The translations under genes and the position numbers were made by a program. The notes below the pieces were generated by a model. That model was given only the letters and a program-made list of their open reading frames with translations. It had not been told where the DNA came from and did not search any database. Positions 16,735-64,000 of a DNA stretch of 64,000 nt are shown in pieces. Origin of the DNA: Symbiodinium natans. Taxonomy: Eukaryota; Sar; Dinophyceae; Suessiales; Symbiodiniaceae. Every line of letters begins with the position of its first letter. Position 1 is the first letter of the stretch. The stretch covers positions 1,818,525-1,882,524 of the forward strand of contig CAJNDS010000001.1 in the NCBI GenBank assembly GCA_905221605.1, in the 5' to 3' direction.

Positions 16735-16965
16735 CCTTTGGGGTTTCAAGGTTTAGGGTCTATAGGGTTTATAGGGTTTATAGGGTTTAGGGTTTGGGGT
16801 TTAGGGTTTAGGGTTTAGGGTTGTGGGTTTGGTGTTAAGGGTTTAGGGTTTGGGGTTTAGGGTTTAGGGGGTTGAGGGTTTGGGGCTTAGGGCAGTTTAG
16901 GGTTCGGAGTCTAGGGTTAGGGGTTGAGGGTTGGGGCTTGCGGATTAGGGTTTGGGGATTCGGAG
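16735..16965. repeat. Degenerate TTTAGGG array
   Basis: G-rich units with many variants. Confidence 0.9.
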
Positions 16966-17317
16966 TAGTGCCGGGCTCAGGGTTCAGATCTGAGCATTCC
17001 AGGACATGCTAGTCTGTATTCAAGGTGCTTTACAAGGCGATCTACCTCGGATGGCTGTGAGTGGACCTAGCCTAGGAAGAAGAGGCTACCCTTTTTCGAT
17101 TTGAGGGGATTATATGGGAACCCCAACCCTTTAAAAAGGCAAAAACAAGGCCTACTCCCGGTCCTAGACCCTAAACCTAAACCCTAAACCCTAAACCTAG
17201 GCGTTCTTGCTTTGTGATGCTGCTTTTTGGCAAACAAAAACGACACCACATCGCAATGCACGAGTCGTCTCTTGCGTTTTTGAACCCTGAGTCCAAGGAG
17301 GCAACCAGAGGGTCCGG
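16966..17317. other. Two non-repetitive islands and short CCCTAAA run
   Basis: The island at 16985-17100 has a plus-strand AG|G acceptor (CCAG|GAC) and a GTGAGT donor, giving DMLVCIQGALQGDLPRMA as a possible exon. The island at 17200-17315 is open on both strands. Neither matches a family I know. Confidence 0.25.
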
Positions 17318-17455
17318 CTTAGGGTTTAGGGTTTAGGGTTTAGGGTTTAGGGTTTAGGGTTTAGGGTTTAGGGTTTAGGGTTTAGGGTTTAGGGTTTAGG
17401 GTTTCGGGTTTAGGGTTTAGGGCTTAGGGCTTAGGGCTTAGGGTTTGGGGTTTAG
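17318..17455. repeat. TTTAGGG array
   Basis: Nearly perfect 7-bp units that become TTAGGGC-like at the end. Confidence 0.95.
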
Positions 17456-18349
17456 TGTTTTTACCCGGAGGTACTTCATCTACTCATGCTTGGCGCCCAA
17501 GCACTCCCCTGTATAAGGCACACCTAAACCCCATAAAGTCTGAGGCAAAGCTTCAGCCATATCCCTAAGCCTAAGATACCCTGAAGCCTAAACCCTAAAC
17601 CCTAAACCCCAAACCCTAAACCCTAAACAACCCTAAACCCTAAACCCTGAGCTGCTTCTCAGGAGCCACTCTTCGAGAAGCCAAGGGGGTCAAAGAAGTT
17701 GAGGGGCCTGGTCCTGGGCATTTGTCAGAGGACCCAAAACCTCGGATTTTTTGAACAAAATCCTTCTGCTCTTTCCAACCCCAAAAACCTCAAAACCGAA
17801 CCCTAAACAGAAAACTCATTCTGAAACACCAAAATACCAAAAACTCGTCGTGTATCAAGAGGGGGGTGCCCATTTTGGGAAACTCTCATATGGCTGGGCT
17901 AAGGGTGTGAGACACTTTGGGCACCGTCCGTTGCAGCGCGTTCAGGATTTGCGGGCCTTCTAGCTTTGCGGTTTCAAGGCTTAGGGTTAGGGTAGGTTTA
18001 GGGTTTAGGGTTTAGGACTAAGGGTCTATGGGCTTGAGGGCTTAGGGTGAGGGTAGGTTTAGGGTTTAGGGTTTTAGGGTTTCGGGTTCTAGGGTTTCGG
18101 GTTTTAGGGTTTCGGGCTTAGGGTTTAGGGCTTAGGGTTTAGGGTGTAGGGTTCAGGGCTGGAGGTCGGAGGGCCGAAGTACTCATCAGCCACGAAGCAA
18201 CAGGTTGCTAGACTCAGGCAGCTTGAAGAAGGGGTGAGGACTACAGTGAGAAGGAGGTCACACCCCAAAACTGGAAACTTAAACCCGAACCCGACATTTT
18301 TTACAAAGCCCACTCCCCAAACCCTACACCCTACACCCCAAAATCTAGA
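17456..18349. other. Mosaic of islands and short arrays
   Basis: Islands at 17460-17575, 17645-17960 and 18150-18260 alternate with CCCTAAA and TTTAGGG runs. The last reads ATKQQVARLRQLEEGVRTTV on the plus strand, a possible coiled-coil exon; the minus strand is also open. No firm gene. Confidence 0.3.
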
Positions 18350-18600
18350 CCCTGAACCCCAAAACCCCAAAACCCCAAAACTCCAAAACTCCAAAACCCC
18401 AACACCCCAAAACCCCAAAACCCCAAAACCCCAAAACCCCAAAACCCCAAAACCCCAAAACCCCAAAACCCCAAAATCCCAAAACCCCAAAACCCCAAAA
18501 CCCCAAAACCCCAAAACCCCAAAACCCCAAAACCCCTAAACCCCTAAACCCCTAAACCCCTAAACCCTAAACCCTAAACCCTAAACCCTAAACCCTAAAC
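18350..18600. repeat. CCCCAAAA (TTTTGGGG) array grading into CCCTAAA
   Basis: About 22 units of an 8-bp CCCCAAAA repeat (18355-18530), then CCCCTAAA, then CCCTAAA. TTTTGGGG is the telomere repeat of some ciliates, but here it appears to be a local variant of the 7-bp unit. Confidence 0.95.
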
Positions 18601-19099
18601 CCACACCCCAAACCCTAAAACCTGCACCCTAAACCCCAAACCCCGAACCATGAGTTGCTGTGCTGCCGGCAGGCACGCCCGGCTGCTCCTCAAGCACCAG
18701 GGGGGCCTCCGGTGCATCCTGGGCTTAGGGCTGAGGGTTTTTTGGGTTTAGATGTCTGCGTTTCGGGTTTCGGGTTTAGGGCTTGGGGTTTAGGGCTTAG
18801 GGCTTGGGGTTTAGGGCTTAGGGCTTAGGGCTTCGGGCTGAGGGCTTAGGGCTGAGGGCTTAGGGCTTGGGACACGGTTTTGCAGCGTTTCGGGTTAGGG
18901 TTTACAGTTAAGGGGTAAGTTTTAGGGTTTGACCCACCCCCCCAACCCCACCCCCACGTCTCCCCACCCCCCGACGAGTTTTAGGGCTGAGGGTTAAGGA
19001 TAGAGTTTTAGGGCTGAGGGTTAAGGATACCCTTGAGGGGGTCTTAGTGGGTGCTAGTACATGTAGGGTGAAAGGTTTAGAAACCCCTAGACCACTTAC
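18601..19099. other. Degenerate arrays with one GC-rich island
   Basis: The island at 18645-18725 is open in several frames. The rest is TTTAGGG/CTTAGGG remnants and C-rich tracts. Confidence 0.4.
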
Positions 19100-19150
19100 C
19101 AGGAGAAGCTGCAAAGCGGAAGCGGCCCTCGTCATCCGTCGTGAGCACGC
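19100..19150 (-). CDS. Internal exon, carboxypeptidase-regulatory-like strand
   Basis: A 51-nt exon with acceptor ACAG|G and canonical donor GTAAGT. It reads VLTTDDEGRFRFAASP. 'TDxEGRFRF' is the typical beta-hairpin of carboxypeptidase-regulatory/CnaB-like folds, which are extracellular or surface modules. Its 5' phase (two bases) fits the exon at 19494-19532, which ends with one base; the joined codon is TGC. Confidence 0.5.
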
Positions 19151-19236
19151 CTGTCAGGGTTCAGGGTCTGTAGGGCTCTAGGCTTAGGGCTTAGGGCTAG
19201 GGGTTCAAGCACGGGACACAGACTCCTCGCGCACCG

Positions 19237-19302
19237 GAAGGAAGGAAGGAAAGGAAAGGAAAGGAAAGGGAAGGGAAGGAAAGGAAAGGAAAGGAAAGGA
19301 AG
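19237..19302 (+). repeat. GGAAA microsatellite
   Basis: Purine-only tract of GGAAG/GGAAA units. Confidence 0.95.
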
Positions 19303-62362: not shown

Positions 62363-63294
62363 GGGTTTAGGGTTTAGGGTTTAGGGTTTAGGGATTAGGA
62401 TTTAGGGTTTAGGGTTTAGGGTTTAGGGCTTAGGGTTTAGGGTTTAGGGTTTAGGGTTTTGGGCTTAGGGCTTAGGGTTTAGGGGTGTAGGGTTTCGCGT
62501 TTAGTAGGGCTTGGGGTTTGGGATTAGAGCGGGCATTTGGGGTTTAGGGTCGCGAGCTTAGGGTCTGTAGCTGCATAAGGGCCCTGAAAACTCTACAAGT
62601 ACAAAAACCGGCATGTTTTCAGTCTCGTAGAAAACTCCCACCCGCAAAGTGTGACCTTCTGCATTATGTTGAGTGTAGCTTCCCACATGGTGATTTTGGC
62701 CAGGGGTTTTCGGAGAACTGCCCTAAGCCCTATAAACCCTAAAGCCTGGACCCTGAGCCAAAAAAACCCTAAGCCCCAAACCGTACCCCTCACGCCCACC
62801 AGCAAAAAAAAGCTAAGACCTAAACCCTAGGTAGACCCCAAACCCCTAAACCCCTAAACCCCTAAACCCCAAACCCTAAACCCCAAACCCTAAACCCTAA
62901 ACCCTAAACCCTAAACCCGAAACCCTAAACCCTAAACCCTAAACTCAAAGACACCCGGAGTGGAGTCCTGGCCCGGCAAGAGTGCTGCAGGAAGCGTCGC
63001 GGCAAGGGCTATCACGGGCAGCGGCCTCTCCGGTCGGTTCGGGAGGGTTTGGGGTTAAGGGGTTTAGGGTTTAGGGTTTAGGGTTTAGGGGTTCAGGGGT
63101 TCAGGGGTTCAGGGGTTTAGGGTTCAGGGGTTCAGGGGTTCGGGGGTTCAGGGGTTCAGGGGTTCAGGGGTTCAGGGGTTCCGGGGTTCAGGGGTTCAGG
63201 GGTTCAGGGTTTAGGGAAGTTTAGGGTTTAGGGTTTAGGGTTTAGGGTTTAGGGTTTAGGGTTTAGGGTTTAGGGTTTAGTGTAACCCCAAAAG
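62363..63294. repeat. TTTAGGG, CCCTAAA and TTCAGGGG arrays, two islands
   Basis: TTTAGGG at 62366-62540. Island at 62585-62720, open on both strands. CCCTAAA at 62840-62943. Island at 62945-63045 (minus: RPLPVIALAATLPAALLPGQ). 63085-63210 is mostly homogeneous TTCAGGGG. TTTAGGG at 63222-63280. Confidence 0.9.
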
Positions 63295-63390
63295 ATACCC
63301 TCATTTAGAGAGCTTCTCTGTCCTCTCCTCAAAGTCCTTAAGCTGCGAAAATGGCGCGCGAAGCCTTCCGCCAAGTCCCCAGGCATTGGG
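63295..63390 (-). CDS. Possible terminal exon
   Basis: The minus strand reads NAWGLGGRLRAPFSQLKDFE then ERTEKLSK and stop near 63320. Helical and charged. The acceptor is not defined. Confidence 0.3.
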
Positions 63391-63489
63391 GTTCAAGGTT
63401 TTGGGTTTAGGGTTTAGGATTTAGGATTTAGGATTTAGGATTTAGGATTTAGGGTGGGTTTAGGGTGGAGGGTTTAGGGTTTAGGGTCT

Positions 63490-63602
63490 ATTAACCAAAC
63501 TACAACTGTACTTCTCACCCACATATACGCCCCTGAAGTGCCCTAATGTGGTTATAAGTACAGTTACAAGTACAGTTATAATTGGTACCATGAACCTCCA
63601 AG
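63490..63602. mobile_element. MITE-A, left end replaced by TTTAGGG
   Basis: The family interior (ACTGTACTTCTCACCCACAT) and right end GGTACCATGAACCTCCAAG are present. The left terminus is missing and TTTAGGG repeat abuts the break. Confidence 0.75.
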
Positions 63603-63654
63603 CACTCAAGGCAAGGAGGTCTGCCCGCCCGCATTTCCTCTTCATTTGCGTACT

Positions 63655-63727
63655 ATAGGGGTCGGAATCATTACGAATAGTCTTCCCTTATGGCCCCTTT
63701 ATGAAATCTACTAGAATAACCCCCCAA
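63655..63727. mobile_element. MITE-E copy, inverted
   Basis: TATAGGGGTCGGAAT at the left to TAGAATAACCCCCCAAG at the right. It matches the reverse complement of 20436-20523 over most of its length. Confidence 0.5.
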
Positions 63728-63751
63728 GACCCTGTTCTTCTAATTCTTCAG

Positions 63752-63870
63752 GCCGCTATATGATCGTCTTGTCTTTGACGCCGCATTCTGCTCCCTCATC
63801 AGCCGCTCCCTCTCGGCTTGGCGCTCGCTGCGATCTGCTCATCCTCGCCAACCAAGCTGCTCAAGTGTTC
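63752..63870 (+). CDS. Possible internal exon
   Basis: Acceptor CTTCAG|G with a preceding pyrimidine tract. The plus strand reads PLYDRLVFDAAFCSLISRSL then SAWRSLRSAHPRQPS. 'LYDRLvFD...LI.RSL' faintly recalls the myosin motor 'LYxRLFDWLV..IN.SL' block with one extra residue. Myosin is only a suggestion. Confidence 0.35.
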
Positions 63871-64000
63871 GCCGCCCTAAACCCTGAACCCTAAATCCTA
63901 ATCCCTAAGCCCTCAACCCTCAACCCTAAAGCCTAAAGCCTAAAGCCTAAAGCCTAAACCCTAAACCCTAAACCCTAAACCCTAAACCCTAAACCCTAAA
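63871..64000. repeat. CCCTAAA array at window end
   Basis: CCTAAAG variants (63928-63955) then nearly perfect CCCTAAA to the edge. Confidence 0.95.

Follow-up and report, generated by a model that had tools for sequence, protein, structure and literature searches.

What is telomere repeat doing between, and within, the genes of a dinoflagellate, away from chromosome ends? The question is raised by a 64,000-nucleotide stretch of the Symbiodinium natans genome (herein referred to as the window; positions 1818525–1882524 of a 3.4-Mb contig in an assembly of 759,417,921 bases and 2,543 contigs), in which tandem arrays of TTTAGGG or its complement CCCTAAA alternate with islands of other sequence, several of which encode pieces of recognizable proteins. 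TTTAGGG is known as the repeat of dinoflagellate telomeres (as stated in passages of PMC11453091 and PMC11508785). Judging from genomic sequence, we consider it probable that the arrays arose as interstitial telomeric insertions at DNA breaks with staggered ends, with telomerase as the probable polymerase, and that such insertions yield introns.

Arrays were called with a two-strand repeat hidden Markov model (HMM). In the window it identified 178 of telomere type, 91 of them TTTAGGG and 87 CCCTAAA, with a median length of 101.5 bp and a maximum of 682 bp. They are tandem repeats away from chromosome ends, the window sitting 1.8 Mb into its contig, and hence qualify as interstitial telomeric sequences. 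The array-rich part of the window is the following:

16735..64000, no strand: short islands, many of them exon-like, between arrays of both orientations (HMM mask, shuffles)

Within it the HMM mask covers 20,827 bases (44.1%) in both orientations combined, versus 0, 0, and 26 bases called as array in three first-order Markov shuffles of the same sequence; a reversed-sequence control was judged poor because the reversed repeat partly fits the model (2,234 and 1,369 bases called in two of three stretches), and the Markov shuffles were used instead. The original prediction, that almost every gap between islands is repeat, paints a fair picture, yet 56% of 16735–64000 is non-array and islands extend up to 1,841 bp.

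The exact word (TTTAGGG)3 occurs 1,185,204 times on the forward and 1,184,385 times on the reverse strand of the assembly (~2.37 million), compared with 41 and 33 occurrences (74) of the same pattern read backwards. Telomere-type repeat accounts for 13.7% (bootstrap 7–21%; per-stretch range 0 to 41%) of a genome sample of 18 stretches at hand-picked sites totaling 179 kb. Word density is 3.44 per kb in this sample and 3.12 per kb in the genome; the calibrated genome share is 12.4% (about 12–14% of 759 Mb), and an estimated density of ~1.3 arrays per kb corresponds to roughly a million arrays genome-wide. Of the arrays observed, 95% are under 273 bp and the longest is 682 bp. The sample and the whole-genome word counts therefore indicate that the arrays are genuine and extend well beyond the window. 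Together with arrays in the introns of genes recognized by homology, described below, the 12.4% estimate bears out the earlier view of telomere-type repeat as intron and spacer material at genome scale.

Five of the 18 sampled stretches (L032, L036, L037, L039, and L049) are free of arrays, and very long frames occur in some of them, such as one of 2,082 amino acids without a Pfam match in L036; in L041, nearly devoid of arrays, there is a frame for a copia-type reverse transcriptase (PF07727, 6.1e-11). Stretches of these kinds seem to be avoided by arrays.

Evidence for insertion comes from the array flanks. In a blind test, the 40 bp on either side of single arrays were compared for 437 of 483 arrays (the other 46 have a short neighboring island or lie near a stretch end), and flanks of different arrays in the same orientation served as control pairs. 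Direct repeats that abut the array and score at least 10 occur at 12 of 437 arrays versus 4 of 5000 control pairs (of the 12, the C-rich case in L034 is doubtful, and a single tandem at 23650–24063 contributes two). Without the abutting condition the counts are 16 of 437 versus 11 of 5000, and an earlier run at a score of at least 8 gave 27 of 404 versus 32 of 3000. The duplications span 8–32 bp in the 18 abutting cases scoring at least 8, a cut that itself excludes duplications shorter than 8 bp, and 16 of the 18 are longer than 9 bp. A subset of the arrays was inserted with duplication of the target, as at these sites in the window:

19800..19844, plus strand: array with 18-bp copies (2 mismatches) abutting it exactly (flank comparison)
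23650..24063, minus strand: two arrays, 23650–23927 and 23955–24063, with three copies of GGGCCGAACCTGGACAYGG, one between them and one on either side (flank comparison)
36018..36089, minus strand: array between 29-bp copies with 5 mismatches (flank comparison)
61327..61424, minus strand: array between exact 12-bp copies (flank comparison)

The motif CATGGCC...CCCTAA also occurs three times around two adjacent arrays at 19800–20025, which may stem either from insertions recurring at a single motif or from an array having been duplicated together with its target.

Insertion followed by decay predicts that duplications should concentrate at pure arrays, and the data match. When 435 of the 437 arrays are divided into thirds by purity, abutting duplications scoring at least 9 are found at 12 of 145 arrays in the purest third and at 1 of 145 in each of the others; median purity is 0.73 with a duplication versus 0.49 without (p = 6e-4).

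Occupied and empty targets can be compared in a dispersed repeat of ~142 bp that resembles a miniature inverted-repeat transposable element (MITE), with near-palindromic ends (ACTTGGAGGTTCATGGTACTTATTAACC). Some copies are split by arrays and others are not, the interrupted copies duplicate part of the target, and the empty sites observed are all copies of this repeat within one genome. One copy in L046 is split by an array with a target duplication of 26–35 bp. The copies, and two arrays inserted in them, are as follows:

673–913, 1315–1545, 26220–26389, 32126–32169, 39163–39265, and 63489–63602 in the window; 7125–7265 and 8033–8249 in L046: MITE-like copies
1339..1417, plus strand: array in the copy at 1315–1545, target duplication of about 10 bp
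26278..26309, plus strand: array in the copy at 26220–26389, the duplicated target of about 13 bp differing at two positions

Whether such insertions can become introns is best addressed in PRP8, which was located on contig C1079 with PF08083 and whose introns were bounded against a stretch of human PRP8. Here and below, splice sites are predictions from genomic sequence, chosen to restore the reading frame. Arrays lie in six of the 12 bounded introns, namely I0 (two arrays, 181 of 516 bp), I1 (31% array), I5 (72%), I6 (38%), I8 (51%), and I10 (48%), and are absent from I2, I3, I4, I9, I11, and I12; a further intron, I7, holds two arrays and was left out of the count as its ends are unfixed. 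I0 and I1 were joined by eye, and I3, I4, and I12, where the sites first chosen gave odd dinucleotides or a broken frame, were excluded from the splice evidence. Reading frames rejoin across arrays in intron position: with I5 and I6 spliced out, a 50-residue stretch matches PRO8NT at 6.6e-21 (with no control scan of single exons), and with I8 to I11 spliced out an unbroken PRP8-like protein results.

The sequence of I5 makes it, in our reading, the clearest in-gene case of array insertion with target duplication. A 69-bp CCCTAAA array lies between two 25-bp copies of coding sequence, CCTCCTTTTGACGACGAGGAGCCAC before it and CCCCCTTTTGATGACGAGGAGCCAC after it, which differ at 2 positions by eye over 25 bp and at 1 position over the 22 bp delimited by the blind flank comparison; the donor and acceptor fall at the matching point of both copies, and the frame is restored.

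In the window itself, array introns were placed in two genes. The light-harvesting, ankyrin, and MLLE domains that had been named in the islands are all present, and all are on the minus strand:

1072..1144, minus strand: light-harvesting exon, first of two in the window (PF00504, 1.6e-05, 25.9 bits on the frame 1049–1177; ends placed by eye)
338..1071, minus strand: light-harvesting intron, GC-AG, 734 bp, with three arrays (352–499, 547–600, and 913–1061) amounting to 351 bp
285..337, minus strand: light-harvesting exon 2, placed from sequence (acceptor ATTCCAG/GC; 3' end approximate)
46956..47037, minus strand: first coding exon of a ubiquitin-like/ankyrin gene, ATG to donor (PF00240 match of the joined protein)
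46802..46955, minus strand: ankyrin-gene intron, GC-AG, 154 bp, of which 136 bp (88%) are telomeric, TTTAGGG in sense
45331..45717, minus strand: ankyrin-repeat exon, same gene region as 46956..47037 (PF00023, 3.9e-24)
42947..43072, minus strand: frame with a piece of an MLLE domain (PF00658, 4e-05, 24 bits, below the Pfam cut-off of 27)

The ankyrin-gene intron lies between two 8-bp copies of GCAACTTG, and the spliced protein matches PF00240 at 1.9e-04 (21.6 bits, below the cut-off of 25.4), whereas the unspliced reading gives no match. The light-harvesting intron also holds part of the MITE-like repeat; joining its exons barely lifts the PF00504 score (9.6e-06 and 26.6 bits, versus 25.9 bits for the frame of the first exon alone), and this join is therefore weakly supported. 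Introns that consist mostly of repeat do exist, as had been proposed, in the ankyrin gene (136 of 154 bp) and in PRP8 (72% and 51%).

The repeat had further been proposed to supply its own splice signals, GT and AG/G, and here the placed introns disagree. In all eight (PRP8 I0, I1, I5, I6, I8, and I10, and the ankyrin and light-harvesting introns of the window), both predicted splice sites, of the GA-AG, GC-AG, or GT-AG type, fall beyond the array, within exon sequence that flanks it or was duplicated. Direct repeats of a duplicated target stand at the intron ends in two of the eight (PRP8 I5, 25 bp; ankyrin, 8 bp), and counts of AGG at island ends showed no strand separation. The original prediction was thus half right: telomere repeat appears to serve as intron material by way of inserted DNA, with splice sites, where they could be placed, apparently drawn from duplicated or neighboring sequence.

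We propose that a staggered DNA break leaves offset ends that would be filled by (TTTAGGG)n and then sealed, telomerase extending a 3' end being the most likely polymerase, and that filling of the offset would copy some 8–32 bp of the target. In a coding target the duplication would leave an intact exon edge on either side of the insert; the spliceosome could then use a donor within or close to the left copy and an acceptor at the right copy (G[T/C/A]...AG/G), turning the insert into a new intron. Repetition over time would have produced the estimated million or so arrays, the older of which would decay, and duplications would therefore remain visible mainly around pure arrays. In this scheme we infer the role of telomerase, the splicing itself, and the extension from the duplicated subset to the bulk of the arrays.

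Several observations weigh against this account. Clear duplications are found at only a few per cent of arrays, and insertion of the remainder is an extrapolation. The start of G-strand arrays favors A or the first G of AGGG (61 and 77 of 309, versus 29–37 for other phases), yet the opposite array end is biased as well (11 to 48 of 228 per phase), and telomerase priming is therefore only hinted at. Neighboring exon-like islands have no clear excess of direct repeats (5 of 104 at a score of at least 7 versus 3.6% of controls), and duplications scoring at least 8 around pairs of arrays do not clearly exceed controls in plus–minus (1.5% versus 1.8%) or minus–plus order (2.1% versus 1.6%). Nor would random single insertions be expected to produce the rule of array orientation around exon-sized islands that is described below. 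Minus–minus pairs do show duplications (6.0% versus 1.7% in controls, n = 67 pairs), led by the tandem at 23650–24063. The idea that paired arrays represent one insertion event was rejected, as no duplications surround plus–minus or minus–plus pairs.

Among other explanations, the one that survives best, although we regard it as unlikely, is that the arrays constitute, or once travelled with, a mobile element whose insertion duplicates the target, either an introner or a retroelement that is truncated and ends in a telomere-like tail. Dinoflagellate genomes do hold introners with target duplications and inverted repeats (according to parts of PMC9860276 and PMC7789003), and a short direct repeat likewise marks the ends of the array-free PRP8 I12. 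However, no common non-telomeric sequence marks the array ends, where the composition outside is nearly flat apart from telomere-like decay; the 430 islands compared do not group into one family (161 weak pairs); and duplications of 8–32 bp differ from the 3–9 bp given for introners in the cited part of PMC9860276. An element with a common body was rejected, no family having been found beyond the repeat itself. The variable length of the duplications is also compatible with target-primed reverse transcription.

It is more doubtful still that slippage or unequal exchange expanded short telomere-like words into the arrays in situ, with no insertion. The MITE-like repeat contains CCCTAA, and 23650–24063 resembles a tandem duplication of an array plus its flank; but growth in place would not duplicate unrelated flanks, whereas the observed duplications exceed controls and track purity, and the coding target of PRP8 I5 had no telomere-like word. 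We give very little credence to the repeat as splice-competent filler carrying GT and AG/G: introns are up to 88% repeat, and the preferred orientation of arrays around exon-sized islands suggests that splicing may select among arrays, yet donors and acceptors lie outside the arrays in the eight placed introns, and the same preferred orientation puts AG-free CCCTAAA before the acceptor. An assembly artefact is extremely improbable, as the arrays are short and differ in sequence, their flanking copies have diverged, reading frames rejoin across them, and they lie in long contigs without N (18 sampled stretches).

The orientation of the arrays follows a rule that the proposed insertion at breaks does not by itself predict. 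Islands of 50–160 bp are flanked in the order CCCTAAA...TTTAGGG 117 times, versus 68.1 expected (standard deviation 5.7, maximum 87 in 2000 permutations) when orientations are shuffled within each stretch, in an island set that includes four small pieces chosen for holding repeat. Genome-wide, at gaps of 80–110, this order is found at 83,227 start positions and the opposite order at 35,412, runs being counted more than once. A coding signal is present in islands so flanked (112 islands; paired p = 5.5e-09) and weak or absent in the other classes (p = 0.059, 0.059, and 0.33). Islands so flanked are therefore enriched in exons, and in the sense direction the rule places TTTAGGG on the donor side and CCCTAAA on the acceptor side. 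Array positions in introns placed by homology show only a tendency in this direction, with 8 following the rule, 4 contrary, and 3 undecided by our own tally. Possible contributors are selection by splicing, pairing of intron ends, and repair geometry. G-runs after a donor can influence splicing, and CCCTAAA contains no AG in the position before an acceptor; in the predicted fold of PRP8 I0, 42 of 178 pairs join its two arrays (with no shuffled control). Head-to-head junctions with a gap of 10 or less number 7 in plus–minus and 0 in minus–plus order, but two-end repair in a single event is not supported as the source of the rule because duplications do not flank plus–minus pairs. A bolder form of the insertion account, which we hold only tentatively, is that telomerase has been a genome-wide maker of introns in this lineage, with the duplicated target providing splice sites and splicing filtering the orientation such that introns keep TTTAGGG close to the donor and CCCTAAA close to the acceptor. 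If so, complementary intron ends could pair and loop the intron out, and introns would be gained by a route that needs no transposon.

The kinds of event involved, interstitial telomeric insertion and intron gain at breaks, are known; the scale appears to be new. In primates and rodents, short interstitial telomeric sequences were inserted at double-strand breaks, with target duplication at 6 of 130 rodent and 4 of 25 primate loci, in all about 150 loci in four genomes (figures from part of PMC2246262). The arrays described here resemble these mammalian insertions in being telomere repeat probably inserted at a break, with a duplication in a minority of cases; they differ in their estimated number of a million, about an eighth of the genome, and in that some appear to split exons and act as introns. 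Introners of dinoflagellates and other algae form families and duplicate 3–9 bp (3–5 nt in Amoebophrya), some with inverted repeats near both intron ends (portions of PMC9860276 and PMC7789003). As the arrays appear to do, they create new introns at duplicated targets, the introner donor often coming from the duplicated target (same portions). On both counts the arrays are unlike introners, the insert being telomere repeat without a family body and the duplications spanning 8–32 bp.

Break repair has been considered in Drosophila, where 19 of 77 gained introns have direct repeats, no more than in a random set (26 of 100), in the part of PMC3296678 cited here. The likeness lies in the proposed route, by which filler at a break between direct repeats becomes an intron; the difference is that a single defined repeat provides the filler here and that duplications clearly exceed controls. 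Daphnia work of 2009 reportedly also described intron gain by double-strand break repair. In Karenia, fluorescence in situ hybridization (FISH) with the same telomere repeat, TTTAGGG, found interstitial signals to be rare (as given in part of PMC6395649). Arrays of about 100 bp are probably missed by FISH.

In the open-licence library searched, no listed title or abstract opening described telomere-repeat introns, and no precedent for the scale was listed there. The origin of introns is an old question, and telomere repeat would be a marked source, recognizable, roughly ageable by its purity, and testable for duplication. Insertion of telomere repeat at breaks would link the repair of DNA breaks by telomere addition with the birth of introns. 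It would also demonstrate that insertions of this kind, so far described at some 150 mammalian loci, can reach about an eighth of a genome.

Other features of the sequence are those of a dinoflagellate nuclear genome, namely tandem multi-unit light-harvesting genes and GC and GA donors besides GT, with AG/G acceptors. Scoring of 150 among 824 candidates gave at least 168 light-harvesting matches (PF00504), many of them arranged in tandem or within one multi-unit frame; C657, C102, C1881, and other contigs carry light-harvesting genes both in tandem and in long, polyprotein-like single frames (906, 1,065, and 3,482 amino acids). A spliced-leader relic, with up to 3 changes allowed, was not found in the window and sampled stretches, and Rfam at its gathering threshold gave no match in the window. 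One sampled stretch, L043 (C400:100001–110000), has a G+C content of 0.346, compared with about 0.48–0.55 elsewhere in the sampled stretches, a 779-residue frame without a Pfam match, and no tRNA found, raising the question of whether it is another replicon or a contaminant. Within the array-poor 2–16 kb of the window, a 429-residue frame at 2197–3486 (minus strand) holds a Phage_integrase domain (PF00589, 7.1e-08) and is, by this domain, a putative mobile element of the tyrosine-recombinase type. A tandem palindromic repeat of about 31 and 63 bp, built around GGAAACTTCC / GGAAGTTTCC, lies at 10659–10971.

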